From NCBI RefSeq assembly GCF_030297175.1, contig NZ_AP028070.1, forward strand, positions 2,852,001 through 2,916,000: a stretch of 64,000 nt of DNA. The letters are read 5' to 3'. This stretch comes from Marinobacter sp. LA51. GTDB lineage: Bacteria; Pseudomonadota; Gammaproteobacteria; Pseudomonadales; Oleiphilaceae. The notes under the pieces were generated by a model. The model made no database searches. It was not told where the DNA came from and saw only the letters and a program-made list of their open reading frames with translations. Position numbers and translations under genes: made by a program. Positions 11,774 through 55,299 of this stretch are shown piece after piece (the first letter of the stretch is position 1; every line of letters begins with the position of its first letter).

Positions 11774-11863
11774 ACTGAAACCTGCTGGCTGCTCATAACT
11801 ACGACTTCAGTTATCAGTGTAGACCGCATTCCAGTAGCTGGAAATGTGCGATTGGCGCCCGGA

Positions 11864-14314: not shown

Positions 14315-14333
14315 TCAGCCTCCTAGAACAAGC

Positions 14334-14900: not shown

Positions 14901-15032
14901 TGCTAGGTTCCCAAAAATGTTGAGCTAAACAGGTTAGCTGATATACCACGAAGAGCGAAAACTAGCGACCGTAACTTGCAGATGGAACGGGGTGAAACGA
15001 AACAGGCGGAGGAAAATTTGGAGCAACGCAAT

Positions 15033-37674: not shown

Positions 37675-37690
37675 CGTCAACTTCTTTTAC
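37675..37690 (+). promoter_or_regulatory. Candidate activator site upstream of the small PEP-CTERM gene
   Basis: CGTCAACTTCTTTTAC, located 53 bases before the -24 element. Near-identical sequences precede the other two PEP-CTERM genes (55207-55222 and 42202-42187), which makes it a candidate binding site for a sigma-54 activator such as PrsR. Confidence 0.5.
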
Positions 37691-37741
37691 ACCACCTCTC
37701 CCAACAGAATTTAATTTACTGATTTTCCGTGCTTTATAATC

Positions 37742-37758
37742 TGGGTGCGGATGTTGCT
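37742..37758 (+). promoter_or_regulatory. Sigma-54-like (-24/-12) promoter of the small PEP-CTERM gene
   Basis: GGGTGCG (37743-37749), four bases, TTGCT (37754-37758), against the consensus TGGCACG-N4-TTGCW. The invariant GG and GC are spaced by exactly ten bases. The GTG start codon follows 37 bases after the GC. Confidence 0.6.
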
Positions 37759-37794
37759 TAGGTATCGGGGAACCCACGAAAGGGAGTTCTTACT

Positions 37795-37959
37795 GTGAAA
37801 ATCCTAACAACCTTAGTGCTCTTATCACTGGTCGCTACCTCAGCAATCGCCGGTGATGTTTATGTCCCACCACCGACGTCGGTGCCTGAGCCAGGTGTTC
37901 TCGGCCTGTTTGCCACCGCAGGTGTCATGCTGTTTCTTGCAAGAAAGTTTCGTAAGTAG
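37795..37959 (+). CDS. Minimal PEP-CTERM sorting-signal protein (54 aa)
   Basis: A tiny exported protein starting at GTG 37795 (AGGGAG eight bases upstream). Residues 1-19 form a signal peptide (M-K-I-L-T-T-L-V-L-L ... A-I-A). Then come about eleven residues rich in proline (V-Y-V-P-P-P-T-S-V), the P-E-P motif at 31-33, a hydrophobic span (about 35-49) and the basic end R-K-F-R-K. This is a complete PEP-CTERM tripartite signal with almost no cargo. It should be processed by an exosortase, which is not in this window. A sigma-54-like promoter and shared upstream motif precede it. Because it is so short it is easily missed. Confidence 0.75.
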   Translation: MKILTTLVLLSLVATSAIAGDVYVPPPTSVPEPGVLGLFATAGVMLFLARKFRK

Positions 37960-38033
37960 GTCAGCGCTGCGGGGTGCGAGCTTTGGCTGTATCGCATTCC
38001 GCGGGTCGATGAGACTGTTCGGCGAGGGGCTTC

Positions 38034-38789
38034 ATGGGAATTTATGGGCTGGTAACACTGGTCGGAGTCGTTCTGCTGCTGGCGCTTGAGCCCATCCTTG
38101 CCAGAAATTCTCTACATTATTCCCGTCTCGACCGCTGGTGCAATAACATTGGGCTTGCCTTTACCAACGAGGTGATTCGCTTCTGTTTGCCGCTGGCGTT
38201 AGCACTGGTCGCAGTCGACGGGCCTTGGCAGGCCTTTAATGCCAGCTCCCTTGGACTACTGTGGGGCACACTGCTGGCCTTTATCATCATGGACTTCAGT
38301 CTGTACTGGGTGCACCGTTTCAGTCATGAACTGCATTGGTTGTGGCGTTTGCATCGCACCCATCACAGCGACCTGGACATGGACGTCACCACGTCTTTCC
38401 GGCACCACCCTGGCGAGGTTGGCTTGAAACTCATCCTGATGACTGGGTTTATTGGCCTATTGGGTTTCACTCCCGCTCACCTGCTGACGTACGTGCTTTT
38501 ACACCGGTGCTTTGCGCTCTGGTCGCATTCAAATGTCCGCATGCCTGAAAGCCTGGAAAAGCAACTCGCGAAAGTGCTGGTCACCCCAAGAGTGCACCAG
38601 ATTCACCACTCGGCCTGTCAGCCGGAGACTGACAGCAATTACGGGCAGGTTCTTACCCTTTGGGATCGCCTGTTCAAAACCTACCTCTCACCGAATCAAG
38701 TGCCCTGCCCGGCACGCTTTGGCCTGGATGACTTTCGCTCGGATGAAGACCAACGCCTGAGCGCACTCTTCGCCCAGCCCATTCGTTAG
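38034..38789 (+). CDS. Sterol desaturase / fatty acid hydroxylase family membrane enzyme
   Basis: A 251-residue di-iron membrane oxygenase with four or so hydrophobic helices. Histidine clusters typical of the superfamily: H94-R-F-S-H98, H107-R-T-H-H111, F-R-H-H-P (124-125) and a late H-Q-I-H-H. Members hydroxylate or desaturate lipids, sterols or carotenoids; the substrate here is unknown. GAGGGG lies four bases before ATG 38034. It follows the small PEP-CTERM gene by 74 bases. A second, larger member of the superfamily is at 53106. Confidence 0.88.
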   Translation: MGIYGLVTLVGVVLLLALEPILARNSLHYSRLDRWCNNIGLAFTNEVIRFCLPLALALVAVDGPWQAFNASSLGLLWGTLLAFIIMDFSLYWVHRFSHELHWLWRLHRTHHSDLDMDVTTSFRHHPGEVGLKLILMTGFIGLLGFTPAHLLTYVLLHRCFALWSHSNVRMPESLEKQLAKVLVTPRVHQIHHSACQPETDSNYGQVLTLWDRLFKTYLSPNQVPCPARFGLDDFRSDEDQRLSALFAQPIR

Positions 38790-38820
38790 CCCCTTCATTA
38801 GCCCAACAGGCTCTGCCGAT

Positions 38821-39675
38821 TTACCTGAGACTCTGAAACGCGCCTTTTACATGGCTGGCAAGGGCATCGTTTAGAGGGTTGGACCCACGGCGAACCAGGG
38901 CCAATTGGTAGGAACCGATATCCGGTAAGTCATCGCTGACTATCTGCTTCAAAGGAGGCCGAACCAGGCTCTTGGGGAACGGCGCCACCGCCAGATCAGC
39001 CACCATGGCCGCCTCCTGCCCGGAGCAATGTTCACAGGTATAGGCAATGCGGTAGGGTTTACCGACACGGTCCAGAGCCCGGAGCGTCATCTGGCGCCAG
39101 GCACAACCCTCGTGCGCCAGGGCAATGGGAAGCGGCGTCCGAAGAAATGCAGAACTGCCTTCCCGGCCGGCCCAGACTAACGGCTCATCGTGAACCACCT
39201 CGCCACGGCTTTCCCGCCCCTCATTGGCGACCGTAACCAGCACCATGTCCAAGTCCCCGGAATCCAGGCGGGCCAAGTTCTGCTTGCTGGAGCCGACCAC
39301 CACATCCACCAGAACTGCCGGATAGGAACGAGCGAACTGAGCTAGGACCTCCGGCAGAATCCGGGTTCCCACATCATCCGATGTGCCGATTCCCACTTTG
39401 CCCTCCAGCGAGGGGGCAATAAAGTGCTGTACCGCCTCCTGATTCAAGCGGAGCAATCGTCGGCTGTAATCCAACAGCACCTCGCCCTCTGCCGTCAGAG
39501 TGACCTGTCGGGGCGCCCGGATAAACAGGCTTTTGCCAAGGTTCCGTTCAAGCTGCTTGATCTGCATGCTCAGTGCAGAAGGAGTGCGGTGGACCATCTT
39601 GGCGGCTTCGGTGAAGGTGCCGCATTCCGAGATAGCTACGAAGGTTCGGAGTACGTCATTATCGAGCAAGGGCAT
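38821..39675 (-). CDS. LysR-family regulator paired with a DUF1127 gene
   Basis: A 284-residue LysR protein. ATG 39675 begins the conserved HTH (M-P-L-L-D-N-D-V-L-R-T-F); an ATG 14 codons upstream is less likely. The HTH has 'T-F-T-E-A-A-K-M-V-H-R-T-P-S-A-L-S' and the effector domain contains an unusual C-E-H-C-S-G pair. It is divergent from the small DUF1127 gene at 39869, an arrangement seen often in proteobacteria, and it probably regulates that gene. Confidence 0.88.
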   Translation of the reverse strand: MPLLDNDVLRTFVAISECGTFTEAAKMVHRTPSALSMQIKQLERNLGKSLFIRAPRQVTLTAEGEVLLDYSRRLLRLNQEAVQHFIAPSLEGKVGIGTSDDVGTRILPEVLAQFARSYPAVLVDVVVGSSKQNLARLDSGDLDMVLVTVANEGRESRGEVVHDEPLVWAGREGSSAFLRTPLPIALAHEGCAWRQMTLRALDRVGKPYRIAYTCEHCSGQEAAMVADLAVAPFPKSLVRPPLKQIVSDDLPDIGSYQLALVRRGSNPLNDALASHVKGAFQSLR

Positions 39676-39868
39676 GTTCACGTGCCTCGCCTCCCGTGGT
39701 GAAGGGTGAAATCTCACTTAAGCATAACTGAAGGCAAACTTAAATTCTTTTCGTTTGATTGAACGCATCATGACAGCCATCCTAGTGTTTCGAAGCGCTG
39801 GTAAGACTGTAAGACGCGAAAAACCAAGCGCGTACCAAGGGCTAACTGCTAACCGACAGGTGACGACC

Positions 39869-40123
39869 ATGCTGGCATTCAAGAACCATCATCAATCTGC
39901 CCCGTATCAGCCGTTTACCGCCTGGATGGAGAGTTATTCGCGGCGCCAGAATTTCCGGCGCATGGCTCGGTCACTGCTGGCGGAGCGGGACGAGATATTG
40001 TCTGACCTGGGATATAACCGTTACGACCTGCTCGACGCTTTACACCTGCCCCTTCATAGCGATGCGATGCAGTATATCGAGGCCCGACGGTCAAGGCGGA
40101 AGCAGCAGAACCGGACGGACTGA
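39869..40123 (+). CDS. Small DUF1127-like protein
   Basis: An 84-residue basic protein from ATG 39869 (AGGTGA upstream); the frame extends 38 codons further but that part lacks family character. The central 'R-R-M-A-R-S-L-L-A-E-R-D-E-I-L-S-D-L-G' followed by 'Y-D-L' matches the DUF1127 core (an arginine-rich helix-turn-helix-like hairpin). Related proteins bind RNA or modulate phosphate and carbon metabolism in alphaproteobacteria; function here is unknown. It is divergent from a LysR gene. Its stop is three bases from the stop of the convergent methyltransferase gene. Confidence 0.72.
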   Translation: MLAFKNHHQSAPYQPFTAWMESYSRRQNFRRMARSLLAERDEILSDLGYNRYDLLDALHLPLHSDAMQYIEARRSRRKQQNRTD

Positions 40124-40126
40124 CTG

Positions 40127-41035
40127 TCAGTCCTGCCCAGGCAGTTGTGAAAACCGAACAAGAGTGAACTCGTCGGCCAGAGAATCCGCAATGTGACGGA
40201 TGTGGGCAGGTGTGATTTCGCAGCAGCCACCGACCACACTGGCACCATCCGCCAGCCAATGACGAACCTCTTCGGTATAACTGCCCGGGGAAACGTCAGG
40301 CCTGGCCTCCAAGGCATCAACTGAGCCGCCACGCGCCATAGCCTCCACCGACTTGAAGGCGTTGGCGTAACCGCCAACGTGGGGATACAGGCCTACGAGC
40401 TCTGGCATGGCAGCGGTGACCAGTTCGGGGTCACAGCAGTTCAACATGACCGCCGTGGGGGTATAAGCTGCGACGGCAGCAATGGCCTCTGAAAGACTTT
40501 CGCCAGACTTCAGTTTGCCATTGCCCTCCAGGCGAAAGGCCACGCCATAGGGCTTGCCTGAAGCCTGAGCCGCAGCGCAGGCGGCCTTCGCTTCCAGTGT
40601 ATTGGTCATCGTTTCGATGAGAAGAACGTCGGCACGAGACTGGAGTCGGGCGAGGGTATCGTATTCGGCTTTCAGATCGTCGAAAGTGCGATCTGGCTGA
40701 ACCTTATAACTGCCAACCAAAGGCCCCAAACAACCGGCAATGTCCACGTCGACGCCGGCAGCCTTAATCGCCTTTTCCAGCACATTGAAGGCCTGCTGAT
40801 GAATCGTTTCCAGACGATCCAGCATCCCCTGCTCTCGCAACCGGGTTGGCGTGGCCGCATAGGTATTGAGCGACAAGGTTCGGGCCCCGGCCCGGATGAA
40901 ATCCTCATGCACACTGGTCACCACCTCCGGCTGTTCCAGCATGACGGCGACCGACCACAGCGGAGAGCTCAGCTCGCGGGCGCGCCGGTATATTTCCTGG
41001 CCAAGACCACCATCAAGAAGAGCAACAGATCGCAT
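40127..41035 (-). CDS. Homocysteine S-methyltransferase family protein
   Basis: A 302-residue single-domain TIM-barrel methyltransferase. The zinc-binding cysteines are in place: Cys200 in M-L-N-C and the G-G-C-C pair at 269-272. 'L-L-D-G-G-L-G-Q-E' at residues 7-15 is the family start. Such enzymes transfer a methyl group to homocysteine from S-methylmethionine, betaine or another small methylated compound, giving methionine. In a possibly DMSP-using organism, a sulfonium donor is conceivable, but nothing in the sequence proves it. Confidence 0.88.
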   Translation of the reverse strand: MRSVALLDGGLGQEIYRRARELSSPLWSVAVMLEQPEVVTSVHEDFIRAGARTLSLNTYAATPTRLREQGMLDRLETIHQQAFNVLEKAIKAAGVDVDIAGCLGPLVGSYKVQPDRTFDDLKAEYDTLARLQSRADVLLIETMTNTLEAKAACAAAQASGKPYGVAFRLEGNGKLKSGESLSEAIAAVAAYTPTAVMLNCCDPELVTAAMPELVGLYPHVGGYANAFKSVEAMARGGSVDALEARPDVSPGSYTEEVRHWLADGASVVGGCCEITPAHIRHIADSLADEFTLVRFSQLPGQD

Positions 41036-41079
41036 AAGACGTTTGGTTCCTTAAAATTCATTGTGAGACTATTGTCATT

Positions 41080-41379
41080 ATGACAGCGAATGTGAAAACC
41101 CGAATCCTCCTTCGGTCGAAACGACTGAATATTTATCTTGTGCGCTACCCGGAAGGCCATAAGGTGGGCCCCCACCTGGACATGATTGCCAAGGGGCGCC
41201 TATATAAACTCAATTGCGTACTGGTTAAACCAAAGGTGGGCGGGGAGTTCATCTGTGATCGGAATTTGTTTAATCTGGCAGGGCGGATCGTTCTGTTTCG
41301 CCCAGACCTTCACCAGCATCGCGTCGAGAAAATTCAACGCGGAAACCGCTGGCTGCTGAGCTTCGCGCTAACAGTTTGA
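41080..41379 (+). CDS. Small 2-oxoglutarate/Fe(II) oxygenase-like core protein
   Basis: A 99-residue protein containing only the iron-binding core of a 2OG oxygenase: P-H-L-D (His/Asp pair at about 32-34), a beta hairpin 'G-G-E-F-I-C-D', a distal histidine in 'H-Q-H-R-V-E-K-I' near 80 and an arginine ten residues on. It is roughly half the size of usual prolyl-hydroxylase-like members. Reading frame and codon use look normal and a start ATG is present, though no Shine-Dalgarno is seen. It may be a minimal enzyme or a shortened relic. Confidence 0.62.
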   Translation: MTANVKTRILLRSKRLNIYLVRYPEGHKVGPHLDMIAKGRLYKLNCVLVKPKVGGEFICDRNLFNLAGRIVLFRPDLHQHRVEKIQRGNRWLLSFALTV

Positions 41380-41442
41380 GGCGGCATAGACGAACCCGCA
41401 TCCCGTGAAGAATGCTTCACAGAAAACTGAATCTTGCAGCTA

Positions 41443-42087
41443 TTAGCTGGGCAACACTTTCTTAGAGGGACGCCTCACCCACACAAAGAGCAGCCCGGTT
41501 AACAGCGTCACTACCGATGAGGGGCCAGGTACGACCGAAGCGCGCATCGAAGTAATCACCCCAGTCAAACCATACATGGTGATACTGTCGTTAACCCAGG
41601 CCAAGTCGATGGCAGTAGAAAAGCGTCCCCCGATAAAATCTTCAATTGGAAAATGATCTGGCCCGAAAGCGAACGGCGAGCCGCTAAAATCGAGATCCAT
41701 GCTTACTACGTCAGGGCCGTATCCTCCCAGGGGGACTTCGTCAGCGTATACAAATGAGTTACTTAAAAAGTTCAGATAGTGGAAGGCGCCGCCTGCATTG
41801 TGGTAAGTCAGACCGAGCGTCGAAAACGCCCAGGATAGAACCTCACCCCGGCCAGTGCCTCCGGCCCCGCTGCGCGTCGCCATCGGATCAAACACGATTT
41901 GACCACTCATGAACGCATTGCCGTTGGTTATCACCAAACCATCATCTCGAATTAAGGCGCTCCGTGGATCTAAATCACCGACGTTAGAAAGAATTCCCGT
42001 CGTGTGACCTTCAAAGATATACGTGATGGGTGCGGCCCACCCTATCGAGCAGGCCATTGACAGGAAAACCAAAATGAAAAAGCGCAT
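41443..42087 (-). CDS. PEP-CTERM-type exported protein with a P-G-P variant motif
   Basis: A 214-residue protein with a signal peptide (about 1-18, ending G-W-A-A), a mature beta-rich domain starting 'I-T-Y-I-F-E-G-H-T-T-G-I', and a C-terminal P-G-P-S-S (187-191), hydrophobic span and basic tail. This follows the PEP-CTERM architecture with Gly replacing the Glu of P-E-P. The N-terminal domain resembles those of other PEP-CTERM proteins. It has its own sigma-54-like promoter and upstream motif. AAGGA lies ten bases before ATG 42087. Confidence 0.75.
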   Translation of the reverse strand: MRFFILVFLSMACSIGWAAPITYIFEGHTTGILSNVGDLDPRSALIRDDGLVITNGNAFMSGQIVFDPMATRSGAGGTGRGEVLSWAFSTLGLTYHNAGGAFHYLNFLSNSFVYADEVPLGGYGPDVVSMDLDFSGSPFAFGPDHFPIEDFIGGRFSTAIDLAWVNDSITMYGLTGVITSMRASVVPGPSSVVTLLTGLLFVWVRRPSKKVLPS

Positions 42088-42126
42088 GGCACCAAGTTCC
42101 TTTTGAGGCGAAGAAAAGAGTGCTCA

Positions 42127-42142
42127 AGCATTATTAATGCCG
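42127..42142 (-). promoter_or_regulatory. Sigma-54-like (-24/-12) promoter of the P-G-P/PEP-CTERM gene
   Basis: On the minus strand: CGGCATT, four bases, ATGCT, with GG (42141-42140) and GC (42129-42128) separated by ten bases. The fit to TGGCACG-N4-TTGCW is moderate. The start codon follows 40 bases downstream. Confidence 0.45.
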
Positions 42143-42186
42143 ACGCTTTGCAGACAAGCAGTTAGCTCAGCCTACGCGCCGATAGT

Positions 42187-42202
42187 GTTTAAAAAGCTGA
42201 CG
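42187..42202 (-). promoter_or_regulatory. Candidate activator site of the P-G-P/PEP-CTERM gene
   Basis: On the minus strand CGTCAGCTTTTTAAAC, 45 bases upstream of the -24 GG. It matches the sites before the other two PEP-CTERM genes at 12 to 13 of 16 positions. Confidence 0.45.
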
Positions 42203-42260
42203 CTATTCGAGCGACGACGGCAGGTTTTTCGGAATAGGGGGCAGGCTTCGCAATCAGGCT

Positions 42261-42569
42261 TCATCCAACCGGCTGACACCCTCGAATAGCCAACGCAATA
42301 TTGGCGCTGGCTTCAATCTGTTCGTAGTACTTGGAGGCGGAATTAACGCCCATCTCGGCGTAACTACCCGCTTCCGGGCTGACGAGAGTACTTAGCTGCG
42401 CCAGAGCCTCTGCGGACTGGCGGTCACGATCGTAGGCATTGAAAGCCTGGTAGATTTCACTGCAGGTAACACCATCGCCATCAGTCGCCGCAGACGACAT
42501 ATAGGTCGAGGTTTGGCAGCCAGACAACAGCGTGATGGCGGCGATGGCAAACAGGAAAGAACGCTTCAC
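42261..42569 (-). CDS. Small lipoprotein
   Basis: A 102-residue lipoprotein. GTG 42569 gives M-K-R-S-F-L-F-A-I-A-A-I-T-L-L-S-G-C, with lipobox L-L-S-G-C, lipidated at Cys18. A TTG two codons earlier is also possible. The mature part is helical, contains two further cysteines and no recognised domain. It is probably anchored in the outer membrane. Family unknown. Confidence 0.72.
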   Translation of the reverse strand: MKRSFLFAIAAITLLSGCQTSTYMSSAATDGDGVTCSEIYQAFNAYDRDRQSAEALAQLSTLVSPEAGSYAEMGVNSASKYYEQIEASANIALAIRGCQPVG

Positions 42570-42627
42570 AGGCAAGAGACTCCACGATTAGACGGGTGAT
42601 TTAAACTTGCCCGCATACTAACAGATG

Positions 42628-43059
42628 CTACTTCGCCATGTGTGCCGCAAACGCGACGACAAACGCGGACTCCTGAAACACCTTCAAGCCGGTCTCCGAA
42701 AAGGTGATCGGCAGCGGATTTGCAGCCAGCGTGGATTTGATCTGCGCTGGCGACAACAGTGTCACTTCCACGTCGACCTCCGAAATCAGCTGAATGGTTG
42801 CTTCCAGTTTGAAACTGATGGCACCGCCCGCAAACTTCCCCTTCGGCATCCGCTCCTTGATCGCGACTTTTTGCACGTTATAGTCGGAAAGCAGCTTCGC
42901 GAACGAGGCCTGAAATTCCTGCAGGTCTGCTCTGGTGTGATTCTTCTTAAGCGTAAGCTTGCGCACCTTGCACTCAGGAAGACTGAACTGCCCCTGATCC
43001 AGGTTCAGCAAACACACCACCGCATCGCTGCCGCTCAGTTCAACACCGCAAATAATCAT
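42628..43059 (-). CDS. DUF3010-family protein
   Basis: A 143-residue protein from ATG 43059 with GAGGTG five bases upstream. 'I-C-G-V-E-L-S-G-S-D-A-V-V-C' at the start and the 'K-E-R-M-P-K-G-K-F-A-G-G-A' centre match DUF3010, a RuvC/ribonuclease-H-like family with no known biochemical role. It sits 19 bases after the SEC-C motif gene on the same strand and is very likely cotranscribed with it. Confidence 0.83.
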   Translation of the reverse strand: MIICGVELSGSDAVVCLLNLDQGQFSLPECKVRKLTLKKNHTRADLQEFQASFAKLLSDYNVQKVAIKERMPKGKFAGGAISFKLEATIQLISEVDVEVTLLSPAQIKSTLAANPLPITFSETGLKVFQESAFVVAFAAHMAK

Positions 43060-43078
43060 CAATTCACCTCAATTGCTG

Positions 43079-43423
43079 TCAGCCGCAGCATTTCTTGAAT
43101 TTAAGCCCGCTACCGCACGTGCATGGGTCGTTACGAGACGGCAATTTCTCCGCGGTGACCGTATTGCCTTTGTTCAGAATGACAGTCAGCTCGCTGATGG
43201 ATTCAGTGGCGCCTTCGCGGGTATCAAGAGCTACGTTTGCGTACAGCCCGGCCTCGGCCACCTGTGTCTCGATCTCTTGTTTGCGCGCTTCACTGGTAAC
43301 CACCAGCGACAGCGGGAACTTCCGGGTTCCGCTCTTCTGGCTTGCGTTGGTCTGAAAACCGCCGTAACGGGTGTGATGCTGACGCGCATCCTGACGGCCT
43401 TTGTAGAAAAATTTGTCTGACAT
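43079..43423 (-). CDS. SEC-C motif (PBPRA1643-type) metal-binding protein
   Basis: A 114-residue protein from ATG 43423 (GGGATGA upstream). The N-terminal half has the family-specific 'F-F-Y-K-G-R-Q-D' and 'Y-G-G-F-Q-T-N' elements. The C-terminus ends in the zinc-binding SEC-C motif R-N-D-P-C-T-C-G-S-G-x-K-F-K-K-C-C. SEC-C tails also occur on SecA, where they bind zinc and SecB. This stand-alone family has no known partner. It precedes a DUF3010 gene. Confidence 0.88.
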   Translation of the reverse strand: MSDKFFYKGRQDARQHHTRYGGFQTNASQKSGTRKFPLSLVVTSEARKQEIETQVAEAGLYANVALDTREGATESISELTVILNKGNTVTAEKLPSRNDPCTCGSGLKFKKCCG

Positions 43424-43686
43424 ATCGTCATCCCGATTGGTTGAGAAAGACACAAGGCTCACGAAGATCTGCGCAGGCCGCTGTCGAGGCCGCGAGTTTT
43501 AGCACGCTTCCCGGAGTTTCTGTTAATGCTTTTTAGTCAGGAAATCCAGACACCCCGTCCGACATCCCGGCCACTTCGCCCAACCGGCCACAAACCAAAA
43601 CCAATAAATTCAGATAGTTACATAGCTGGCACGAAACTTCCTTGGCATTACCCGCCGAAAAATAAATCCAATAAAAGGAGCATTCG

Positions 43687-45429
43687 ATGATCACACGTTC
43701 ATCCCTATCACTGCGCGTTGGCACCGCGCTGTCGACACTCATGCTGTCAGCCCTGCTGATGGCTCCAGCTGCGCCCTCCTCTGCGGGCCAAACCTACTCC
43801 TATTCCCTGCCACAACAACCCTACAGCCAGTCCCGCGCCCGGGACTACAAAGTGTATGTGCCGGATAATGTCGCCTCACCCGCCCCAATGGTGATGGCGC
43901 TGCATGGCTGCAAACAGACCAACAATGATGTGCTTAACGACTGGGGCCTGACCGCCGCTGCCGACAACTACGGATTCATTCTGGTGGCTCCGTTTATCAC
44001 CACTTACGACGGTCTACGAAACGAGAACTGTTGGGGATTCTGGTTCGACCACCATCGTCACGAAGGCGCCGGCGAGACGGAGGACCTGCACCAGATCGGC
44101 CTTGCCGTTGAGGCCAACTACAACATCGATCCCAACCGCCGATTCATCACCGGCTTATCCTCCGGCGGCGCCATGACCATTGTTGCCGCGGTAACTCATA
44201 ACGAATACTGGGCTGCTGCTGCACCCGCGGCCGGTTTGCCTTACGGCGAAGATGCCGGATCGGTGTCGCTGTCCGGCCAGTGTCCGGGGAGCGCCAATTT
44301 TCACAGTGTTTCCCGAGTGGTCTCGGATATGCAGAACGAACTGGATGACAGTTACCCCATTCCGCTGATGGTGCTGCAAAACGAGAATGACTGCACCGTG
44401 CTGAAAACGGCAGCGGATAACACTCGCGATGCACATCTCAAGGTTTTCGGCACGCCCGCCTATGACACCACCAGCGAGGCCCAGGCGTCATCCACCGCGT
44501 GTGCGCCCTACTACCAGAACAACTACAGCTGCCAACACATCCGATATACCGAAGACGGTACTGTCGGCACCCGCTCGGTGGTGGAGACCATTTACCTCGA
44601 TGGCCCTTTATCCACCCCCAATACCCAGGACACGAATCACGGGCACTACTGGGTTGGCGGCGCCAATGGCAACAACGGCAAATGGTCTGTGAAAGTCGGC
44701 CCCAGCTACCCGGACCTCATCTGGGACTTCTTTGACCGCCATAGCCGTGATGGCTCCCAGCCCGAGGGTTTTCCGGTCATCACGTTGATTGGCGACAACC
44801 CGATGAACGTGGCCGTTAACACCACCTTCACCGACCCGGGCGCCACCGCTGACGACGCGGAGGACGGTTCGGTCACTGTCACGGCCGATTGCAGTGCGGT
44901 GGATACCTCTACCATCGGGTCCTACACCTGCACCTACTCAGCCACCGACAGTGACAGCAATACCACTTTGAAAGACCGCGAGGTGGTGGTCTATGACCCT
45001 AATGCCCCGACCGAAACCTGTGAGCAAGCCACGGCCTCGCCCAACGCGCACATCTCCGCAGGCCGCGCTTATGCCGGCGGTGCCTACAACTACCGCACGT
45101 TCGCCAATGGCGACGACGTCGACATCGGCGCGTCCTATGACACCTGGAACAGCGTCACTCTGTACGAAGGGGATCCGGGGCTCTGGTACGCCAGCGAACC
45201 GACCGCGTGCAGTGGTGGTGGCGATGGTGGAAACGGAGGTGGCGGTGAGCCCCCTGCCTGTCAGGACTGGAACGACACCAACCTCAACCACGACAACGCA
45301 GGCCGCGCTTACTACGCCGGTGGCTACTATTCGACGGGAGGGGATGACTTCCTCGGCTCCGTATCCGGGATCTATACCTGGGTAAAGGAAACCGGCGAAG
45401 GGTTCTATGAGGCAGGTCAGTGTAACTGA
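43687..45429 (+). CDS. Extracellular polyhydroxybutyrate depolymerase-family esterase with Ig-like and repeat domains
   Basis: A 580-residue secreted esterase. A signal peptide covers about residues 1-33. The alpha/beta-hydrolase domain runs to about 345, with oxyanion 'A-L-H-G-C-K-Q' (His73) and nucleophile Ser158 in the lipase box G-L-S-S-G. An Ig-like DUF5011/HYR domain follows (about 356-437, starting P-V-I-T-L-I-G-D-N-P). Then come two homologous C-terminal units, each containing 'A-G-R-A-Y', separated by a Gly-rich linker, probably carbohydrate- or polymer-binding. It would degrade external PHB-like polyesters. AAGGAG lies before ATG 43687. Confidence 0.9.
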   Translation: MITRSSLSLRVGTALSTLMLSALLMAPAAPSSAGQTYSYSLPQQPYSQSRARDYKVYVPDNVASPAPMVMALHGCKQTNNDVLNDWGLTAAADNYGFILVAPFITTYDGLRNENCWGFWFDHHRHEGAGETEDLHQIGLAVEANYNIDPNRRFITGLSSGGAMTIVAAVTHNEYWAAAAPAAGLPYGEDAGSVSLSGQCPGSANFHSVSRVVSDMQNELDDSYPIPLMVLQNENDCTVLKTAADNTRDAHLKVFGTPAYDTTSEAQASSTACAPYYQNNYSCQHIRYTEDGTVGTRSVVETIYLDGPLSTPNTQDTNHGHYWVGGANGNNGKWSVKVGPSYPDLIWDFFDRHSRDGSQPEGFPVITLIGDNPMNVAVNTTFTDPGATADDAEDGSVTVTADCSAVDTSTIGSYTCTYSATDSDSNTTLKDREVVVYDPNAPTETCEQATASPNAHISAGRAYAGGAYNYRTFANGDDVDIGASYDTWNSVTLYEGDPGLWYASEPTACSGGGDGGNGGGGEPPACQDWNDTNLNHDNAGRAYYAGGYYSTGGDDFLGSVSGIYTWVKETGEGFYEAGQCN

Positions 45430-45454
45430 GCTGAGAGAATTCCAAGGAGATAAC

Positions 45455-45482
45455 GAGCCCGCCGCGAATGATCGGCGGGCTC
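45455..45482. terminator. Convergent stem-loop between the depolymerase and AbrB-like genes
   Basis: A perfect ten-pair GC-rich stem: GAGCCCGCCG (45455-45464) and CGGCGGGCTC (45473-45482) with an eight-base loop, between two convergent stops. There is no long T-run, so it probably ends both transcripts with modest efficiency. Confidence 0.7.
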
Positions 45483-45492
45483 CCAAAATCAT

Positions 45493-46560: not shown

Positions 46561-46579
46561 CGCTGAATCCCCAGGCCCA

Positions 46580-48085: not shown

Positions 48086-48095
48086 ACCAGGCACC

Positions 48096-48545: not shown

Positions 48546-49528
48546 TGTGTCAGCCCAACTTCTTTAGCCAATTCCTTGAACTGGACAACCATCTCTTTCA
48601 CGTATGTGTCGAAGTTGTCGCCATAGCGCTCCATGGGAAACAGGCCACGCGCGTCACGCATCTCGGCAAACTTCTCGGTACCCGCCAATTCTTCCAGTCG
48701 CGCCACCCAGGCGTTGTATGCCTCATCACTCACGTTCGGCCCCATGTAGTAACCACGCCAGATCGGCCATTGCACGTCGTAACCCTGCTCTTCCGCGGTA
48801 GGAATATCGGCGTAAGGGCCACCCACACGTTCTTCGGCCAACGCAGCCAGCACGCGCACTTTGCCGGAATCCAGGTGTGGGCGAAGTTCAGAGAGGTCGC
48901 CGGTGAACACATGGATGTGCTCGCCCAGAAGTGCCGCCAGAGATTCACCGCCACCTTCAAAGGCCACATAGCGCAAATCCCGGGGTGAAACATCGGCTGC
49001 CTTGGCGGTAAGCGCTGCCTTCATCCAGTCCTGACTGCCAACAGTACCACCGGCACCAAAGACGATCTTGCCAGGCTGTGTCTTCAGATCCTGGGCCAGC
49101 TCTTTCAGGTTCTGCCAGGGGGCATCAGCTTTCACCACGATGGCGCCATAATCCACACCCAGGGCACCCAACCAGCGCACTTCGTCGGCGTCATACTGGC
49201 CAAATTTGCCCAGTGCCAGATTAACGGCAGCGCCGGTACTGGCGGCAACGATGAGGTTGGGGTCGTCCTTACGAACACCGTTGACGTGGTTGTAGGCGAC
49301 GGCTCCGATACCGCCAGGCATGTAGCTGACCATCATGGGCTGGTCGATCAACCCTGTTTCCTGCAGGGCATTGGCGGCAAGACGGCACGTGAGGTCATAA
49401 CCACCGCCTGGTTTGGCAGGTGCGATACATTCGGTGGGTTTGGCGAAGGCCTGAACGGATCCGGTCATCAAGGCAGCGCCCATAACAGCGGCTGCAGACC
49501 GGCGAAGGAATGCGGTGTTGAATTTCAT
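48542..49528 (-). CDS. tctC: Tripartite tricarboxylate transporter substrate-binding protein TctC
   Basis: A 328-residue periplasmic receptor with a signal peptide (about 1-29). 'C-I-A-P-A-K-P-G-G-G-Y-D-L-T-C-R' (about 33-48) is the family's ligand-carboxylate loop, with a notable cysteine pair at its ends, and 'Y-M-P-G-G-I-G' near 69 is the second. It captures a citrate- or tricarballylate-like acid. AGGAG lies six bases before ATG 49528. It is divergent from tctDE, which should control its expression. Confidence 0.93.
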   Translation of the reverse strand: MKFNTAFLRRSAAAVMGAALMTGSVQAFAKPTECIAPAKPGGGYDLTCRLAANALQETGLIDQPMMVSYMPGGIGAVAYNHVNGVRKDDPNLIVAASTGAAVNLALGKFGQYDADEVRWLGALGVDYGAIVVKADAPWQNLKELAQDLKTQPGKIVFGAGGTVGSQDWMKAALTAKAADVSPRDLRYVAFEGGGESLAALLGEHIHVFTGDLSELRPHLDSGKVRVLAALAEERVGGPYADIPTAEEQGYDVQWPIWRGYYMGPNVSDEAYNAWVARLEELAGTEKFAEMRDARGLFPMERYGDNFDTYVKEMVVQFKELAKEVGLTQ

Positions 49529-49680
49529 GTCGAACTCCTGTTGTATTTGTTTTGAGCGGAGCGCAGCGACGCGCCTCCGCCACCCATCGTATCGATGGCC
49601 AGAGTTATCCTATGGACACAACCTGTCATTAACCTGTCAGCCATCGATAATCGCTGTCCGCCACTTTCAAGAAACCCGCC

Positions 49681-50349
49681 ATGCGTCTGCTGATCGTTGA
49701 AGATGACCCGTTAATTGCCGACTCTCTGCATCAGGGCCTGGCACCCCTGGGCAACACGGTGGAGGTATTCACCAGCCTTAAGGAGGCGCGCGCTGCACTG
49801 GCGCACAACCAGTTCGACCTGGTGGTACTGGACCTGGGTCTGCCGGATGGCAGTGGGCTTTCGTTACTGGAGGAAATTCGCGAGCGACGCGATACCACAC
49901 CGATCATGATCCTGACGGCCCGCGACGGCGTAGCAGAGCGGGTTAAAGGCTTGGACCTGGGTGCCGACGATTACCTGACCAAACCATTTTCCCTACCGGA
50001 ACTCCAGGCCCGGGTGCGGGCCTTGCTTCGCCGGAGCCAGCAGCGCATCGACAATCATCTCCGCTTTGGCCCCCTGTGCTTTGATCCCGCCTCCGGCCAC
50101 GCCACTTTGTTCGGTGAGCATCTGGACCTACCGCCCCGGGAGCTGGGATTGATAGAGGGTTTGCTCCTGTACGCAGGGCGTATTGCCCCGCGTGAGCACC
50201 TGATTAACCGGCTGTTCGGCTTTGGTGAGGCCGGCCCCAATGCCTTAGAGGTCTACGTCAGCCGACTGCGCAAACGCTTGCAAGGCAGCGGCGTGCGCAT
50301 CCGCACTCTGCGCGGCCTGGGATATCGCCTCGAGGATGATCCGGAGTGA
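49681..50349 (+). CDS. tctD: OmpR-family response regulator TctD
   Basis: A 222-residue two-domain regulator: receiver (about 1-115) with phosphoacceptor Asp51 in V-L-D-L-G-L-P-D and the 'L-T-K-P-F' lysine near 100, then a winged-helix DNA-binding domain ending 'T-L-R-G-L-G-Y-R-L'. It is divergent from tctC across about 150 bases and overlaps the kinase gene by four bases (GTGA). It likely activates the tct transporter genes when its kinase senses the substrate. Confidence 0.94.
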   Translation: MRLLIVEDDPLIADSLHQGLAPLGNTVEVFTSLKEARAALAHNQFDLVVLDLGLPDGSGLSLLEEIRERRDTTPIMILTARDGVAERVKGLDLGADDYLTKPFSLPELQARVRALLRRSQQRIDNHLRFGPLCFDPASGHATLFGEHLDLPPRELGLIEGLLLYAGRIAPREHLINRLFGFGEAGPNALEVYVSRLRKRLQGSGVRIRTLRGLGYRLEDDPE

Positions 50350-51746
50350 TCGTTGTTAAGGGCACCCTGAAACAGCGGCTAGGTGCCTGGCTGCTCGCAG
50401 CGTTTGGCGTTCTTGGCACATTTCTGCTGATTGAGGCATACACCAGCGCGGAGCGGGCAGCAGATCGTGCTTATGACAGTTTGCTAAAGGCGGCCAGCCT
50501 GACAATCGGCGAAGCGGTCCAGTGGCAGGGCGGCCAGCCAGTGGTGGAGATACCCGCCGCCGCCTTTCAGATGCTCGCAACCGGGCAGCAGGAGCGGGTG
50601 TTTTATGCGGTTGTGGACAACGACGGCCAGTCGGTGACGGGCAATCTGGATGCGGCGACTTTGGAGACACTGCATCACCATGCGTCACGTCAGTCTGAGC
50701 CGGTTTGGAGCTTCCTTCAGTATGCCGGCGCACCCATCAGGGTTCACGGCCGCCAATTGAAATCCGCTGGCTGGGAATCCGTAGAGCCCTTGCAGATCTG
50801 GGTCGGCCACACCCTTTCCGGCCGGGAATCCCTGACTCAAGACCTGTTCACCAAGGCTCTGATCCGGTTTGTTGTCATGGTTATGCTGACCGGGCTGCTA
50901 ATGTTGGTGGCCATTCGAACGGCATTGGGCCCGGTCCGGCGCCTGCGACAGCTCATCCGCCAGCGCAAAGCTGATGACGTCAGCCCCCTGAACGCGGAAG
51001 TGCCGGGCGAGCTGTACGACATGGCGGAAACTCTGAACGCTCTTTTCGAACGACAGAGGGAAGGCCGCAATGCGCTACTGCGCTTCAGCGCCGATGCCAG
51101 CCACCAGCTGAAAACACCTCTTGCAGGGCTGCAAAGCACGAGCGAACTGGCACTGCAAAGCAACCAGCCGGAGGACTGGCGTAAGGCGCTTCAAACCGTT
51201 CATGACAGCAGCGCACGCACCAGCCGCCTTGCCGGGCAACTGCTCAGCCTGTCACGCCTGCGCCACGCCGAGGCCAGACCAAAGACGCAGATCGATCTGT
51301 CGGACCTGTTGCGCGAAACGATCACCGAGTGGGCCGATCGCAACGTCGCAAAACATCACGATTTAGGCATGGCTGCCCTGCCCGACGCCCCAGTTTATAT
51401 TCAGGGCGAACCCTGGTCTCTGCACGAATTGATCGGCAACCTTATTGACAACGCTCTGCGCTATACCCCGGCTGGCAGCGAGATCACCCTGAGCCTGACC
51501 AAGCAGGAAAGCACGGTGGAACTGCGGATTCAGGACAACGGCCCTGGCGTAGACTCAGAGTTGCTGGACCGTCTGCACCAGCCTTTCGAGCGCGGCGGGC
51601 GCCAGGACACCGAGGGGTCCGGGCTCGGCCTTGCTATCGTCAACTCCATCGTGCAACGGCATCAGGCAACATTCGAAATTCACAGCGAGCCGGGCCACGG
51701 TCTGTGCATATGCATTATATTCCCAGTTCTGGCCGAGGAAACCTGA
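50346..51746 (+). CDS. tctE: Sensor histidine kinase TctE
   Basis: A 466-residue membrane kinase. Two helices (about 13-30 and 171-190) flank a periplasmic sensor region; the phosphoacceptor is His253 in A-D-A-S-H-Q-L-K-T-P-L. The ATP-binding region has N-L-I-D-N-A-L-R-Y-T-P (N box), D-N-G-P-G-V and G-S-G-L-G-L-A-I-V. Start is GTG 50346, overlapping tctD. It phosphorylates TctD. The gene after it encodes a periplasmic binding protein that could present ligand to this kinase. Confidence 0.94.
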   Translation: MIVVKGTLKQRLGAWLLAAFGVLGTFLLIEAYTSAERAADRAYDSLLKAASLTIGEAVQWQGGQPVVEIPAAAFQMLATGQQERVFYAVVDNDGQSVTGNLDAATLETLHHHASRQSEPVWSFLQYAGAPIRVHGRQLKSAGWESVEPLQIWVGHTLSGRESLTQDLFTKALIRFVVMVMLTGLLMLVAIRTALGPVRRLRQLIRQRKADDVSPLNAEVPGELYDMAETLNALFERQREGRNALLRFSADASHQLKTPLAGLQSTSELALQSNQPEDWRKALQTVHDSSARTSRLAGQLLSLSRLRHAEARPKTQIDLSDLLRETITEWADRNVAKHHDLGMAALPDAPVYIQGEPWSLHELIGNLIDNALRYTPAGSEITLSLTKQESTVELRIQDNGPGVDSELLDRLHQPFERGGRQDTEGSGLGLAIVNSIVQRHQATFEIHSEPGHGLCICIIFPVLAEET

Positions 51747-51747
51747 C

Positions 51748-52806
51748 ATGAAACGCTGGTTGTGGGCGCACTTTTCGGCACCTTTGATAACACTGCTATT
51801 GGCGGCGGGCCTACTGCCATCCGCGGCAATGGCACAGAATAAAACCACGCTCGAAGTTGATGCCGCCCTGGATCTGCCCGTGGTGGCGCCATTGCTTGCA
51901 GCATTTGAACAGGCCCATCCGGAAATTGAGGTGTCCTTCCAGGACCAGTCCACCCTTGAGGTGGATGAACGGGCCCGAAACGCCTCACCAGCCCCCGATG
52001 TGGTCATCAGCTCGGCCATGCCCTGGCAGATGGCCCGGGTAAATGACGGCCTCGCCCAACCACTGGACAGCAGCGCCGCCCGAGAGTGGCCAAGCTGGGC
52101 CAAATGGCGCAACGAAGTGTTTGGGTTTACCTTCGAACCCATCGTGACCGTGTACCGGCTCGATCTGGCCCGCCACATGCTGCCACCCCAGACCCATGCC
52201 GACCTCCACACCATCCTGAACACCCATAAGGATATGCTCCGTGGCCGGGTCACAACCTATTCCCCCTCCGGAAGCGGCATCGGCTATACCCTGTTCCAGC
52301 AAGATGCCCGCTATTCCCCTCGATTCTGGGATCTGGTTGCCGCCCTGGGCGCGGCCGACGTGCACCTTGAAAATTCCACTCAGAAGATGCTCGAGGGGCT
52401 CACCGATGGGCGCTATTGGGTCGGCTACAACCTGCTGGGCTCTTACGCTATCCAGTGGGCCCGCAGCCATCCCGAGCTTATTGTGCAGATCCCTCAAGAC
52501 TATTCATTGGTGATGATGCGCATGGCGTTCATCCATCGCGATGCGCCCAACCCCGAGGCCGCCCGTACATTCATGAATTTCTTGCTGAGCGCCGACGGCC
52601 AACAGATTCTCGCCGGCGAAACGCCGTTGTTCAGTGTGCTGCCGGATGTGGTCGGTCCCTACACCTCGCAGCGGCTGCGGGATCAGGTTGGCGAGCGCCT
52701 ATACCCAATTCCCATTGATGCCTCACTCCTGGCATTCGTGGATCCCATGCGTCGCGATGTGTTCATGAACCGGTGGCGGCGGGAAATACAGATTCTAAGT
52801 CCGTAA
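51748..52806 (+). CDS. Periplasmic ABC-type substrate-binding protein coupled to the TctDE system
   Basis: A 352-residue exported binding protein (signal peptide about 1-29, ending A-M-A). ATG 51748 starts one base after the tctE stop with GAGGAA upstream. The open frame continues upstream inside tctE but that is spurious. The mature protein resembles iron/thiamine/phosphonate-type binding proteins: 'P-D-V-V-I-S-S-A-M-P' near 88, 'S-P-S-G-S-G-I-G-Y' near 169. No ABC permease or ATPase gene is adjacent, so it may act as a sensory ligand receptor for TctE instead of feeding a transporter. Confidence 0.85.
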   Translation: MKRWLWAHFSAPLITLLLAAGLLPSAAMAQNKTTLEVDAALDLPVVAPLLAAFEQAHPEIEVSFQDQSTLEVDERARNASPAPDVVISSAMPWQMARVNDGLAQPLDSSAAREWPSWAKWRNEVFGFTFEPIVTVYRLDLARHMLPPQTHADLHTILNTHKDMLRGRVTTYSPSGSGIGYTLFQQDARYSPRFWDLVAALGAADVHLENSTQKMLEGLTDGRYWVGYNLLGSYAIQWARSHPELIVQIPQDYSLVMMRMAFIHRDAPNPEAARTFMNFLLSADGQQILAGETPLFSVLPDVVGPYTSQRLRDQVGERLYPIPIDASLLAFVDPMRRDVFMNRWRREIQILSP

Positions 52807-52877
52807 AGGTCTCACGCTGGACAGGGTGAAAGAGGCGGGCTGACCTCAGTATCCCGAACGGAAATCGCAAGCGGGCC

Positions 52878-53027
52878 TTATTGTCCGACCACAGTCACCG
52901 GCCCTGTGGCATGCCGGACCACTTTTTCACTGACACTGCCAAGCAGCAGAGTGCCCACCGAAGATTTCTCGTAGGGGTACACCGTTAGCAACTGCAGGGG
53001 GAGTCTTTGTCCACGGTGACACCTCAT
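52878..53027 (-). pseudogene. Remnant of a universal stress protein (UspA family), C-terminal end only
   Basis: The minus-strand frame reads a typical UspA C-terminus: L-L-T-V-Y-P-Y-E-K-S-S, then L-L-G-S-V-S-E-K-V-V-R-H-A-T-G-P-V-T-V-V-G-Q and stop TAA (52880-52878). G-S-V-S-E-K-V-V-R is the family's signature ATP-binding segment. An ATG at 53027 opens the frame, but only 49 codons exist where about 140-300 are normal, and the sequence before the match is unrelated. It is best read as a decayed fragment left by deletion or rearrangement. Confidence 0.75.
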
Positions 53028-53105
53028 AAGCGTTACAATGCGTCACCTCATTATCCCCTCCGCCAGATCTGGAGGGTTGACCCGGATCGACGGAGGCATT
53101 GGCTT

Positions 53106-54266
53106 TCAGCCCAGAGCCGTTGCGCCCCAAAGGCTTGCGGCGAACCAGACCAGAAGTGGCACTCTCACCCACTCGAGCCACTGAAAGCGGGTCCGGTTTT
53201 CCAACAGATCCCCGGCAATGACCAGCCCGCCGATCACCAGCACCGTTCCCGTAGCTACCTGCCACCCGGGCAGTTGTGGCGAGAAGAAGATAAACGCGGT
53301 GCAGACGATAAATGTCAGCATCATGGAGCAGCCCACATAGAGCTTTTTGCCAGGAGTGGTCTGTGGGTCGTACTTGGGCCGGTCGCTGCAACCGGTTTTC
53401 TGCATGCCCGGATCAGCGGCGTCCATAGCCAGGCAATCCGCCGGGCGCCAGCCAGTGGGCCGAAACCACAGCGATACCTTGTCCTGCCAGCGCGCGGTGT
53501 TGATGGTGTCGCGGGCCAGCATCGACCAGTGCTGCAGGTTGGCGCGAACCGGGTTCAGGGTATCCAGCGGACGGGTTGTCCCGTAATGGCACGGCTCGTC
53601 CGCCAGCTCCGGCTGCCAGGTGCCAAACAGACGGTCCCAGATCACCAGGGTGCCGCCGTAATTGCGATCAATGTAGATCGGGTTCTTGGCATGATGTACA
53701 CGGTGGCTAGACGGCGTAGACATCACCCCTTCAATTATCGGAATGCGGTTAATGGACTGGGTATGCAACCAGAACTGGTACATCTTGAGCACCACGAACT
53801 GAACCACGAAGACCACCGGCGGACAGCCCAGCACCGCCAGAGGCAAGTAGAACACCCAGGAAAAAGCGTACTGGAATGCACTCTGGCGCAACGCCGTGGT
53901 GAAGTTGTATTCCTCACCCTGGTGATGACCCACGTGCGCGCCCCACAGGAGGTTGATCTGGTGGGCGATGCGATGAAACCAGTAGTAACAGAAGTCGACG
54001 CCCAGAAAGAACACCAGCCAGGTGATCGGATTCTCCACCTGAAAATCGATCAACCGATGGTTCTGCCACAGCCAGATAAATACCGCGAAGGTATAGGCTT
54101 TCAGCAAGGCATCGGAAATGAGCAACAAAAGGCCCATGGACAGGCTGTTCACACTGTCGTTAAAGCGGTGCAAACTGCGACCCTGCAGCCGCAACACGCC
54201 GTACTCCACCAGCATCAGTATGAGGAATAGCGGAATGGCCAGGCCATTGATGTTGTAGTCGCTCAT
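53106..54266 (-). CDS. Sterol desaturase-family membrane oxygenase, alkylglycerol monooxygenase-like layout
   Basis: A 386-residue protein from ATG 54266. The N-terminal part (about 1-260) carries the di-iron histidine clusters: H-R-I-A-H near 98, H-V-G-H-H near 112 and H-R-V-H-H-A-K-N near 192. A C-terminal section with three more hydrophobic helices follows, giving a length and layout like eukaryotic alkylglycerol monooxygenase. The substrate is probably an ether lipid or sterol-like lipid. It is larger than the relative at 38034. Confidence 0.85.
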   Translation of the reverse strand: MSDYNINGLAIPLFLILMLVEYGVLRLQGRSLHRFNDSVNSLSMGLLLLISDALLKAYTFAVFIWLWQNHRLIDFQVENPITWLVFFLGVDFCYYWFHRIAHQINLLWGAHVGHHQGEEYNFTTALRQSAFQYAFSWVFYLPLAVLGCPPVVFVVQFVVLKMYQFWLHTQSINRIPIIEGVMSTPSSHRVHHAKNPIYIDRNYGGTLVIWDRLFGTWQPELADEPCHYGTTRPLDTLNPVRANLQHWSMLARDTINTARWQDKVSLWFRPTGWRPADCLAMDAADPGMQKTGCSDRPKYDPQTTPGKKLYVGCSMMLTFIVCTAFIFFSPQLPGWQVATGTVLVIGGLVIAGDLLENRTRFQWLEWVRVPLLVWFAASLWGATALG

Positions 54267-54424
54267 ACTGTCGCCTCGACCACTGGGCACGAATTAAAAT
54301 GAGACATTTGATGTTGTCCTTGTTATTTCATTAAGAGCCTAACAAAGAGCAACGCATGAGGCCTCGAATATGTTCCGTCCTGCACTGATCGAGGCCTGAA
54401 AAGATAGACTGCCAAGGAGCACCG

Positions 54425-54988
54425 ATGACTTCCCCACACCGCATCTACCTCGCCGGCCCGGAGGTCTTTTTTCCGAAACAGGAACACCGGGCCATCGTGG
54501 CCGAGAAAAAGCGACTGCTCCGGGAGCATGGATTTGAGGGTGTCGACCCACTGGATACTGATCTGGCGTTCCCCGAGCACGAATCGAAGCAGGATCAAGG
54601 CCTGCGAATCTACCGGGCAAACCGGGAGCTAATGGACAGCTGCGATGCCATTATCGCCAACCTGACTCCGTTCAGGGGCATTAGCGCGGACCCGGGTACG
54701 GTGTTCGAAGTGGGCTATATGATCGGCCAGGGCAAGCCCGCGTTCGGGTTTACCATGAACAGCCAGAGCTATCACGAGCGCGCCGGTTCCGGCAGCCGGG
54801 ACGAGCTTGGCCACGCCATTGAGGACTTCGAGCTCAGCGACAACCTGATGATTGACTGTGGCATTACCGAATCCGGCGGCGGCTTATTTATTGCGAAGGG
54901 CCCAGAGGATCACAGCCATTTTTCCAGTGAAGTCTTCAGTGACTGCGTGAGCGCTTTGGCGTGTTGTCCGACCACCGCAACCGCCTAG
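54425..54988 (+). CDS. Nucleoside 2-deoxyribosyltransferase
   Basis: A 187-residue protein of the nucleoside 2-deoxyribosyltransferase family, which exchanges bases between deoxynucleosides for purine/pyrimidine salvage. Features: I-Y-L-A-G-P-E-V-F at the N-terminus (substrate loop), the D-S-C-D-A-I-I-A-N-L-T-P-F-R-G segment and the catalytic glutamate in G-T-V-F-E-V-G-Y, near residue 98. AAGGAG lies before ATG 54425. It is a single gene. Confidence 0.9.
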   Translation: MTSPHRIYLAGPEVFFPKQEHRAIVAEKKRLLREHGFEGVDPLDTDLAFPEHESKQDQGLRIYRANRELMDSCDAIIANLTPFRGISADPGTVFEVGYMIGQGKPAFGFTMNSQSYHERAGSGSRDELGHAIEDFELSDNLMIDCGITESGGGLFIAKGPEDHSHFSSEVFSDCVSALACCPTTATA

Positions 54989-55206
54989 CGTTGCCTGACT
55001 CTGGGGTACGCCGCAAGGTAAGGCGTCTACACACGGCCCACCCTCGATTCATCGCAGTGTCCATATTTCTTACAAGTCGCATTCCACTTCAGAAATAACC
55101 ATACAGTCTGCTCCCACTGCAGGCCCCGAGCGAACAACGGGAGCAATTGATATTCCACGCCAGTTGTTAGCTGCAAATGTTTTTTGAACGGGGTCACGCA
55201 GATTGA

Positions 55207-55222
55207 CGTCAGGTTCTTTTAC
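55207..55222 (+). promoter_or_regulatory. Candidate activator site of the third PEP-CTERM gene
   Basis: CGTCAGGTTCTTTTAC, 62 bases before the -24 GG. It differs from the site at 37675-37690 in only two of 16 positions. Confidence 0.5.
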
Positions 55223-55283
55223 TTTTCTATTGCAAAAAACTTACAACCTTAATTAATGCCAATAAAAACAATGCATTAATTAT

Positions 55284-55299
55284 TGGTCTGTATCTTGCT
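55284..55299 (+). promoter_or_regulatory. Sigma-54-like (-24/-12) promoter of the third PEP-CTERM gene
   Basis: TGGTCTG (55284-55290), four bases TATC, TTGCT (55295-55299). GG and GC are exactly ten bases apart. The best fit of the three to TGGCACG-N4-TTGCW. ATG follows 45 bases after the GC. Confidence 0.65.

Follow-up and report, generated by a model that had tools for sequence, protein, structure and literature searches.

The stretch analysed here, 64,000 nucleotides of the Marinobacter sp. LA51 chromosome (hereafter the window), corresponds to C1:2852001-2916000 of a whole genome of 3,774,518 bp assembled in a single contig, C1. Scattered over it are three genes for proteins with PEP-CTERM or PEP-CTERM-like C-terminal tails, each preceded by a 17-nt box of the kind for which the regulator PrsR has been proposed as binder and, nearer the start codon, by a -24/-12 element of sigma-54 type (Table 1). 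We describe these promoters, the other genes of the same predicted regulon, and a putative small RNA (sRNA) gene outside the window that has a promoter of the same kind.

The three genes and their upstream regions

An earlier note on this DNA had described three PEP-CTERM genes with a common upstream motif. For the genes at 37795 and 55344 the description stands, both tails scoring over the profile cut-offs, whereas the product of 41443-42087 has a P-G-P tail and gave no match in profile searches with TIGR02595 and PF07589; for these two reasons it is here called PEP-CTERM-like. The motif itself is shared exactly to the base, CGTCARSTTYTTWWAC matching at 37675-37690 (+), 42202-42187 (-) and 55207-55222 (+), and the reported GG-N10-GC elements are confirmed, with distances of 37, 40 and 45 nt from the GC to the start codon. 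A probable second box lies 150 bp upstream of that at 55207. Two of the box copies in the window end AAACA and TTACT. Noncoding DNA extends for approximately 205 and 355 nt upstream of two of the genes, and for 173 nt upstream of the third, gene 42087, if the open reading frame (ORF) at 42261-42575 is real.

Table 1. The tail-bearing genes, their promoter features and the putative sRNA. Positions are those of the window unless given with C1.
Feature	Position	Strand	Basis
PrsR-type box (motif 1) of microprotein gene	37675..37691	+	Held-out matrix, rank 1 of 127,964
-24/-12 sigma-54 element of microprotein gene, GGGTGCGGATGTTGCT	37743..37758	+	Sequence reading
54-residue PEP-CTERM microprotein: signal peptide, 10-residue linker, PEP-CTERM tail	37795..37959	+	TIGR02595 and PF07589 over cut-off
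PEP-CTERM-like secreted protein with VPGPSS tail	41443..42087	-	Tail reading, family comparison
-24/-12 sigma-54 element of PGP-tail gene, CGGCATTAATAATGCT	42127..42142	-	Kept in 8/8 family loci
PrsR-type box of PGP-tail gene	42186..42202	-	Held-out matrix, rank 3
Probable second upstream box copy of gene 55344	55057..55075	+	Held-out matrix, rank 4 of 127,964
PrsR-type box of DVUA0089-family PEP-CTERM gene	55207..55223	+	Held-out matrix, rank 2
-24/-12 sigma-54 element of DVUA0089-family PEP-CTERM gene, TGGTCTGTATCTTGCT	55284..55299	+	Sequence reading
PEP-CTERM protein, DVUA0089 family (NF038127)	55344..56015	+	TIGR02595/PF07589 tail over cut-off
Putative sRNA, ~80 nt	C1:2043121-2043210 (outside window)	+	Promoter, folds, conservation

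Significance of the box

The earlier note held that a single -24/-12 match is weak evidence. Random stretches of 55 nt reach a score of at least 7 out of 11 in around 10% of cases, and the window shows no excess of sigma-54-like sites, with 108 where 128 are expected, so that the element says little by itself; such matches were consequently dropped as a criterion in their own right. The box is a different matter. Allowing up to two mismatches to the window consensus, there are four matches in the window where 0.22 are expected, and none of 100 shuffles reaches four, although this test is circular because the consensus derives from the same three sites. A fairer test uses a matrix derived from seven boxes that lie elsewhere in the genome: it places the three window boxes first, second and third among 127,964 positions. 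Those seven sites had been gathered, in part, using a pattern relaxed on visual inspection once the upstream regions had been viewed. The nearest approach to an a priori test is a search of the whole genome with the window pattern, one position being loosened to N and at most one mismatch allowed. This finds five places, against three for the reversed control; two of the five are outside the window, one before a PEP-CTERM gene and one within an ORF.

The genome-wide scan proposed in the earlier note was run with the box pattern without a gap term, each locus then being read individually. Exact matches to the loosened pattern GTCRRNTNNTTTTACA occur at five places (one in the reversed control), all five upstream of PEP-CTERM genes, four genes in total. 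With one mismatch the figure rises to 21 places, compared to seven in the control, and nine of these are upstream of eight PEP-CTERM or PEP-CTERM-like genes. For the other 12, no PEP-CTERM gene was seen among the downstream ORFs listed, and 11 of them fall within ORFs of at least 90 amino acids. Box-like sites at window position 53985, C1:2399984 and C1:2110421, which lie within ORFs, were set aside, as were weak sites near 3572764 and 2047688, which are in coding sequence. As a separate observation, the closest match in the window to TGGCACG-N4-TTGCW, with a single mismatch (TTCC replacing TTGC), is at 43627-43642 (+), some 45 bp before a 580-codon ORF.

Conservation among 120 Marinobacter genomes bears on the same question. 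The microprotein family comprises 13 loci in 12 genomes, our own included (L054-L065 and L068), once two of 15 places found, which encode ordinary long PEP-CTERM proteins, are excluded. The box precedes all 13, with scores of 12.4-26.7, and 12 of them, again including our own, have a GG-N10-GC between -51 and -72. Relatives of the 41443-42087 protein occur in eight of the 120 genomes (L098-L105), and both box and -24/-12 element are present at all eight loci, our own among them. It could be supposed that three upstream regions share a motif by chance, lone -24/-12 matches being common. The held-out ranking and the boxes retained in every one of these relatives argue decisively against this, and we regard coincidence as scarcely credible.

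More broadly, the exact box pattern occurs 125 times in the 120 genomes, compared to 52 times for the reversed control. We read 29 of these sites, one per genome and all outside our own: 21 have a -24/-12 element scoring at least 6 within 120 nt (chance around 35%), and 15 have a PEP-CTERM-like gene as recognised by regular expression, at least one more (L084) lying beyond the limits used. Two genomes, G003 (L087) and G017 (L096), have an exact box upstream of the gene for the XrtA-associated glycosyltransferase EpsB2 (TIGR03013). These were rejected as promoters, the sole GG-N10-GC within about 200 nt falling at the start codon.

A probable dispersed regulon and its machinery

Genome-wide, seven genes encode PEP-CTERM tails over cut-off, and a box with GG-N10-GC stands before each of the seven. 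Two look-alikes share the arrangement, namely 41443-42087 in the window and C1:2113006-2113509. All nine genes have a -24/-12 element, scoring at least 7 of 11 in eight cases, and the gap between box and element ranges from about 44 to 86 nt. Apart from the five exact boxes already mentioned, the boxes show one or more changes from the pattern; a pair of boxes, spaced 62 bp apart, precedes the gene at C1:1886112. The earlier suggestion of a PEP-CTERM regulon dispersed over the chromosome is thus supported. The second look-alike (L047:8006-8509), which adjoins 2-methylcitrate (prp) genes, has a TEPSS tail that is not matched by TIGR02595 and lies below the PF07589 cut-off, and was discovered solely through its box. 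A sub-cut-off tail match in PlsY at 598829 was dropped.

PrsR and exosortase, which the earlier note had expected elsewhere in the genome, are both present. Consecutive genes encode PrsK (2056682; 659 bits), PrsR (2058940; about 672.7 bits against a cut-off of 502.6), PrsT (396.1 bits) and a fused exosortase A/EpsI (2063149; 231.6 bits for exosortase A), all of them over cut-off. In the 60 kb scanned, no box scoring above 15 with a -24/-12 element was found before the PrsK, PrsR, PrsT or XrtA genes themselves. Downstream of exosortase A, ORFs of 2197 and 2148 codons lie side by side (L052:2898-9491 and 9498-15944, at approximately 2.068-2.081 Mb).

Promoters of this kind have been described before. 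Haft et al. (2006; PMC1569441) reported that 99 of 167 proteobacterial PEP-CTERM genes are preceded by a site consisting of a 17-nt motif 1 ending TTTACA, repeated in some cases, and, after a spacer of 32-92 nt (mean 62.8), a motif 2 with -24 GG and -12 GC; the site precedes single genes with more than 200 nt of noncoding upstream DNA, and PrsR was proposed as its binder. The window promoters are therefore of a published kind, and motif 1, the -24/-12 element, the scattered PEP-CTERM genes, PrsK, PrsR, PrsT and exosortase all agree. Compared with the excerpts of that paper on which this comparison rests, two features here differ: some tails are without the PEP glutamate or the first proline, and the site is also found before a conserved putative noncoding RNA.

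Experimental work on two other organisms points the same way. The Desulfovibrio vulgaris response regulator DVUA0057, like PrsR here, is predicted to control PEP-CTERM genes, and its five predicted targets were all enriched in vitro by DNA-affinity-purified-chip (DAP-chip) analysis; the sRNA target in that organism belongs, as far as the excerpted report goes, to a different regulator, DVU0679 (PMC3333781). The pepA gene of Aquincola tertiaricarbonis requires rpoN1, and its mapped start fits a -24/-12 promoter which, like those here, has a predicted enhancer site upstream (PMC9850573). The case differs in concerning one gene, with no sRNA mentioned in the excerpts of the paper. In the open-licence literature on PEP-CTERM in Marinobacter, none of the matches listed deals, by title, with these promoters.

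We conclude that the window genes very probably belong to a nine-gene PEP-CTERM(-like) regulon governed by PrsK, PrsR and sigma-54, with the same kind of promoter preceding the putative sRNA. What the sequence itself shows is where the sites lie, that they are conserved and that the machinery is present. PrsK would sense a signal and then phosphorylate PrsR. The latter would bind an imperfect dyad of about 17 bp (approximately GTCR-N7-TKACA), situated about 45-90 bp before the -24 GG, and, once bound, would drive transcription by sigma-54 RNA polymerase at the -24/-12 element. The protein products would be secreted precursors for the exosortase A encoded beside PrsK, PrsR and PrsT. Such a regulon bears out a 20-year-old prediction, and the box finds members that tail models miss: the PGP/PSP-type subfamily, the TEPSS-tail protein and an RNA gene.

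A putative sRNA under the same kind of promoter

The 60-kb scan around prsR revealed one strong box with a -24/-12 element (9 of 11), at C1:2043003, that has no gene downstream, and two further box loci in the genus led to the same place. Here, 16 kb upstream of prsR, lies the putative sRNA of Table 1. A hairpin at its 5' end is followed by the single-stranded core AUGCCGAGCUU, which is nearly invariant, and then by an intrinsic terminator. Sequences from the locus give fold z-scores of -4.0, -4.2 and -2.1, and the 5' segment folds with a median of -17.6 kcal/mol compared to -10.6 for shuffles. The stretch UGCCGA of the core is found again in the terminator, where it makes up the 5' arm (UGCCGA-GCUU-UGCCGA; L053:18167-18184), so that the core could also pair with the terminator 3' arm.

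A covariance model made from three sequences matches 106 of the 120 genomes at an expectation value (E) of 0.01 or below, with a single match in each except G005 and G079. We read 104 loci, leaving out G004 and G096 (E about 0.004) and the second matches in G005 and G079. A box at -99 to -127 together with GG-N10-GC near the 5' end is present in 101 of them; the GG-N10-GC scores at least 7 in 100, G020 making the 101st. The box scores at least 10 at 97 of the 104 loci, as against four on reversed sequence, using a matrix that held no sRNA site. Among the 100 distinct promoter-bearing sequences the core reads ATGCCGAGC in 95, ACGCCGAGC in four and ATACCGAGC in one, while at the three promoter-less loci (G068, G070 and G119), excluded from the core and reading-frame counts, it is broken every time. 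In an order-wide search the sRNA was matched in 15 of the 16 Marinobacter genomes shown. G303, from another genus of the same family, keeps the core and has only a weak box; four further matches (E of 2.5e-4 to 9.5e-4), without box and core, look like terminators and were discarded.

Short sigma-54-dependent RNAs that rely on an NtrC-type activator and end in an intrinsic terminator are familiar from Qrr, GlmY/GlmZ and CrcZ. By its sequence the putative sRNA resembles them in length, promoter type and terminator; unlike them, it has no Rfam match at gathering score in the loci examined (Rfam 15; L113, L116 and L137), the best hit at our own locus being to sraL on the opposite strand, with 25.2 bits where 39 are needed. 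In the open-licence literature, subscription journals being outside the scope of the search, no exosortase or PEP-CTERM regulon was found to include an sRNA, and this conserved small RNA gene is apparently undescribed.

Might the locus be no more than the place where two convergent genes terminate, and owe its conservation to that? Our own intergenic stretch has one terminator on each strand, the 5' hairpin also resembling a terminator of the minus-strand gene next to it, and RNAalifold, applied to a 44-row alignment, retains the terminator helix only. Yet the 11-nt core lies outside both hairpins and hardly varies, and the minus-strand T-run is missing in G056 and G067. A plus-strand terminator, moreover, needs plus-strand transcription, and no sigma-70-like promoter was found in our own intergenic stretch, whereas the box and -24/-12 element are kept almost throughout and the core is broken where they are lost (two of those three loci being near-identical). 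We consider a region serving termination alone unlikely. Nor does the RNA look like a tiny mRNA whose short peptide would begin at the AUG of the core. The ATG is admittedly intact in 95 of the 100 distinct sequences, but no reading frame is conserved among them: the distance from core to terminator arm falls in all three frames (69, 16 and 15 of 100), and in our own genome the frame continues through the terminator. A coding role is accordingly very improbable.

Base-pairing through the core would make the sRNA a riboregulatory output of the same switch, adjusting other mRNAs while the surface-protein programme is on. We think it probable that the Marinobacter switch has two layers of this sort, cargo mRNAs on the one hand and, on the other, a genus-wide, essentially single-copy sRNA that would retune mRNAs through the 11-nt seed AUGCCGAGCUU. 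If so, exosortase systems would here have their first known riboregulator, as far as the literature searched goes, and a conserved sRNA sharing the promoter would extend such systems to post-transcriptional control.

Stem pairs hold in 93.1% of alignment cells, compared to 35-55% when the pairing is slid, and all 500 shuffles fall short both of the observed covariation score and of the observed number of cells with both sides changed. Several observations, however, weigh against a two-layered PrsR switch. For pairs in which both sides have changed, the observed number is reached by 112 of 500 shuffles, and for further pair types by 134, and these two failing measures, of five, are the ones least inflated by relatedness; the RNAalifold result mentioned above belongs here too. 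The alignment moreover took 44 of 54 sequences, and the ten omitted include several that are longer-looped, which favours the pair counts. The joint decay of promoter and core amounts to around two events, since G068 and G119 are nearly identical. Antisense matches, sought as sRNA targets, are no longer than 10 nt in some 195 kb of our own sequence. At the promoters, one of the nine -24/-12 elements of the regulon scores 6 of 11, and the sRNA box reads TTTGACA, not TTTTACA, in most genomes, because of which another activator could bind it; the dyad is TGTC...GACA before most sRNAs and GTCR...TTACA before most PEP-CTERM genes. In occurrence, too, the match is imperfect: 13 genomes with PrsR have no sRNA match under strict filters, and seven (G032, G035, G040, G042, G106, G107 and G108) have the sRNA and its promoter without PrsR over cut-off. 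G032, G106 and G107 are poorly complete, G035 has its PrsR divided between two frames, and the G108 contig stops within the PrsR gene. In G040 and G042, 99% complete, no PrsR was seen in the stretches read.

These last two genomes, which retain box and sRNA, offer some encouragement to the view that the box is bound not by PrsR but by another sigma-54 activator, and candidates exist, the LA51 genome holding twelve long NtrC-type matches and hence about 11 such regulators besides PrsR. On the other side, PrsR is over cut-off in 111 of the 120 genomes, and, of the four prsR-lacking genomes inspected, two are explained by the split frame and the contig end. The phylogenetic profiles of PrsR and the site match, according to the excerpts of Haft et al. 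(PMC1569441), and all five predicted targets of DVUA0057, a regulator likewise assigned to PEP-CTERM genes by prediction, were enriched in vitro (PMC3333781, also in excerpt). With these points in mind, we judge binding by a different activator to be distinctly unlikely and favour PrsR.

Protein families and neighbouring genes

Members of the microprotein family are 49-56 residues long, with a variable middle of 5-12 residues and a conserved tail approximating VPEPG[VIM]LGLFA...RKFRK; the three best named matches to the LA51 protein are from M. sediminum, M. similis and M. alexandrii. The tail is the less changeable part, with a pN/pS (the ratio of nonsynonymous to synonymous differences per site) of 0.20 where the signal peptide has 0.56; these values are sums over all sequence pairs, and synonymous sites are close to saturation. 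AgrD provides a model for release of a short peptide from a precursor, and the microprotein might conceivably be processed likewise, its short variable peptide being set free by signal peptidase and exosortase A, but we hold this to be highly doubtful. Among the matches listed from the small-protein literature and for EppA, nothing concerned PEP-CTERM. The linker of the microprotein in G048 holds a second PEP.

In the family of the 41443-42087 protein, PEP is found in none of the seven readable tails, four of which have PGP, and one each PSP, SGP and PTP. Finally, the window contains two fatty-acid hydroxylase genes (PF04116, with weak similarity to OlsE), at 38034-38789 and 53106-54290, and both of these adjoin or nearly adjoin a PEP-CTERM gene.

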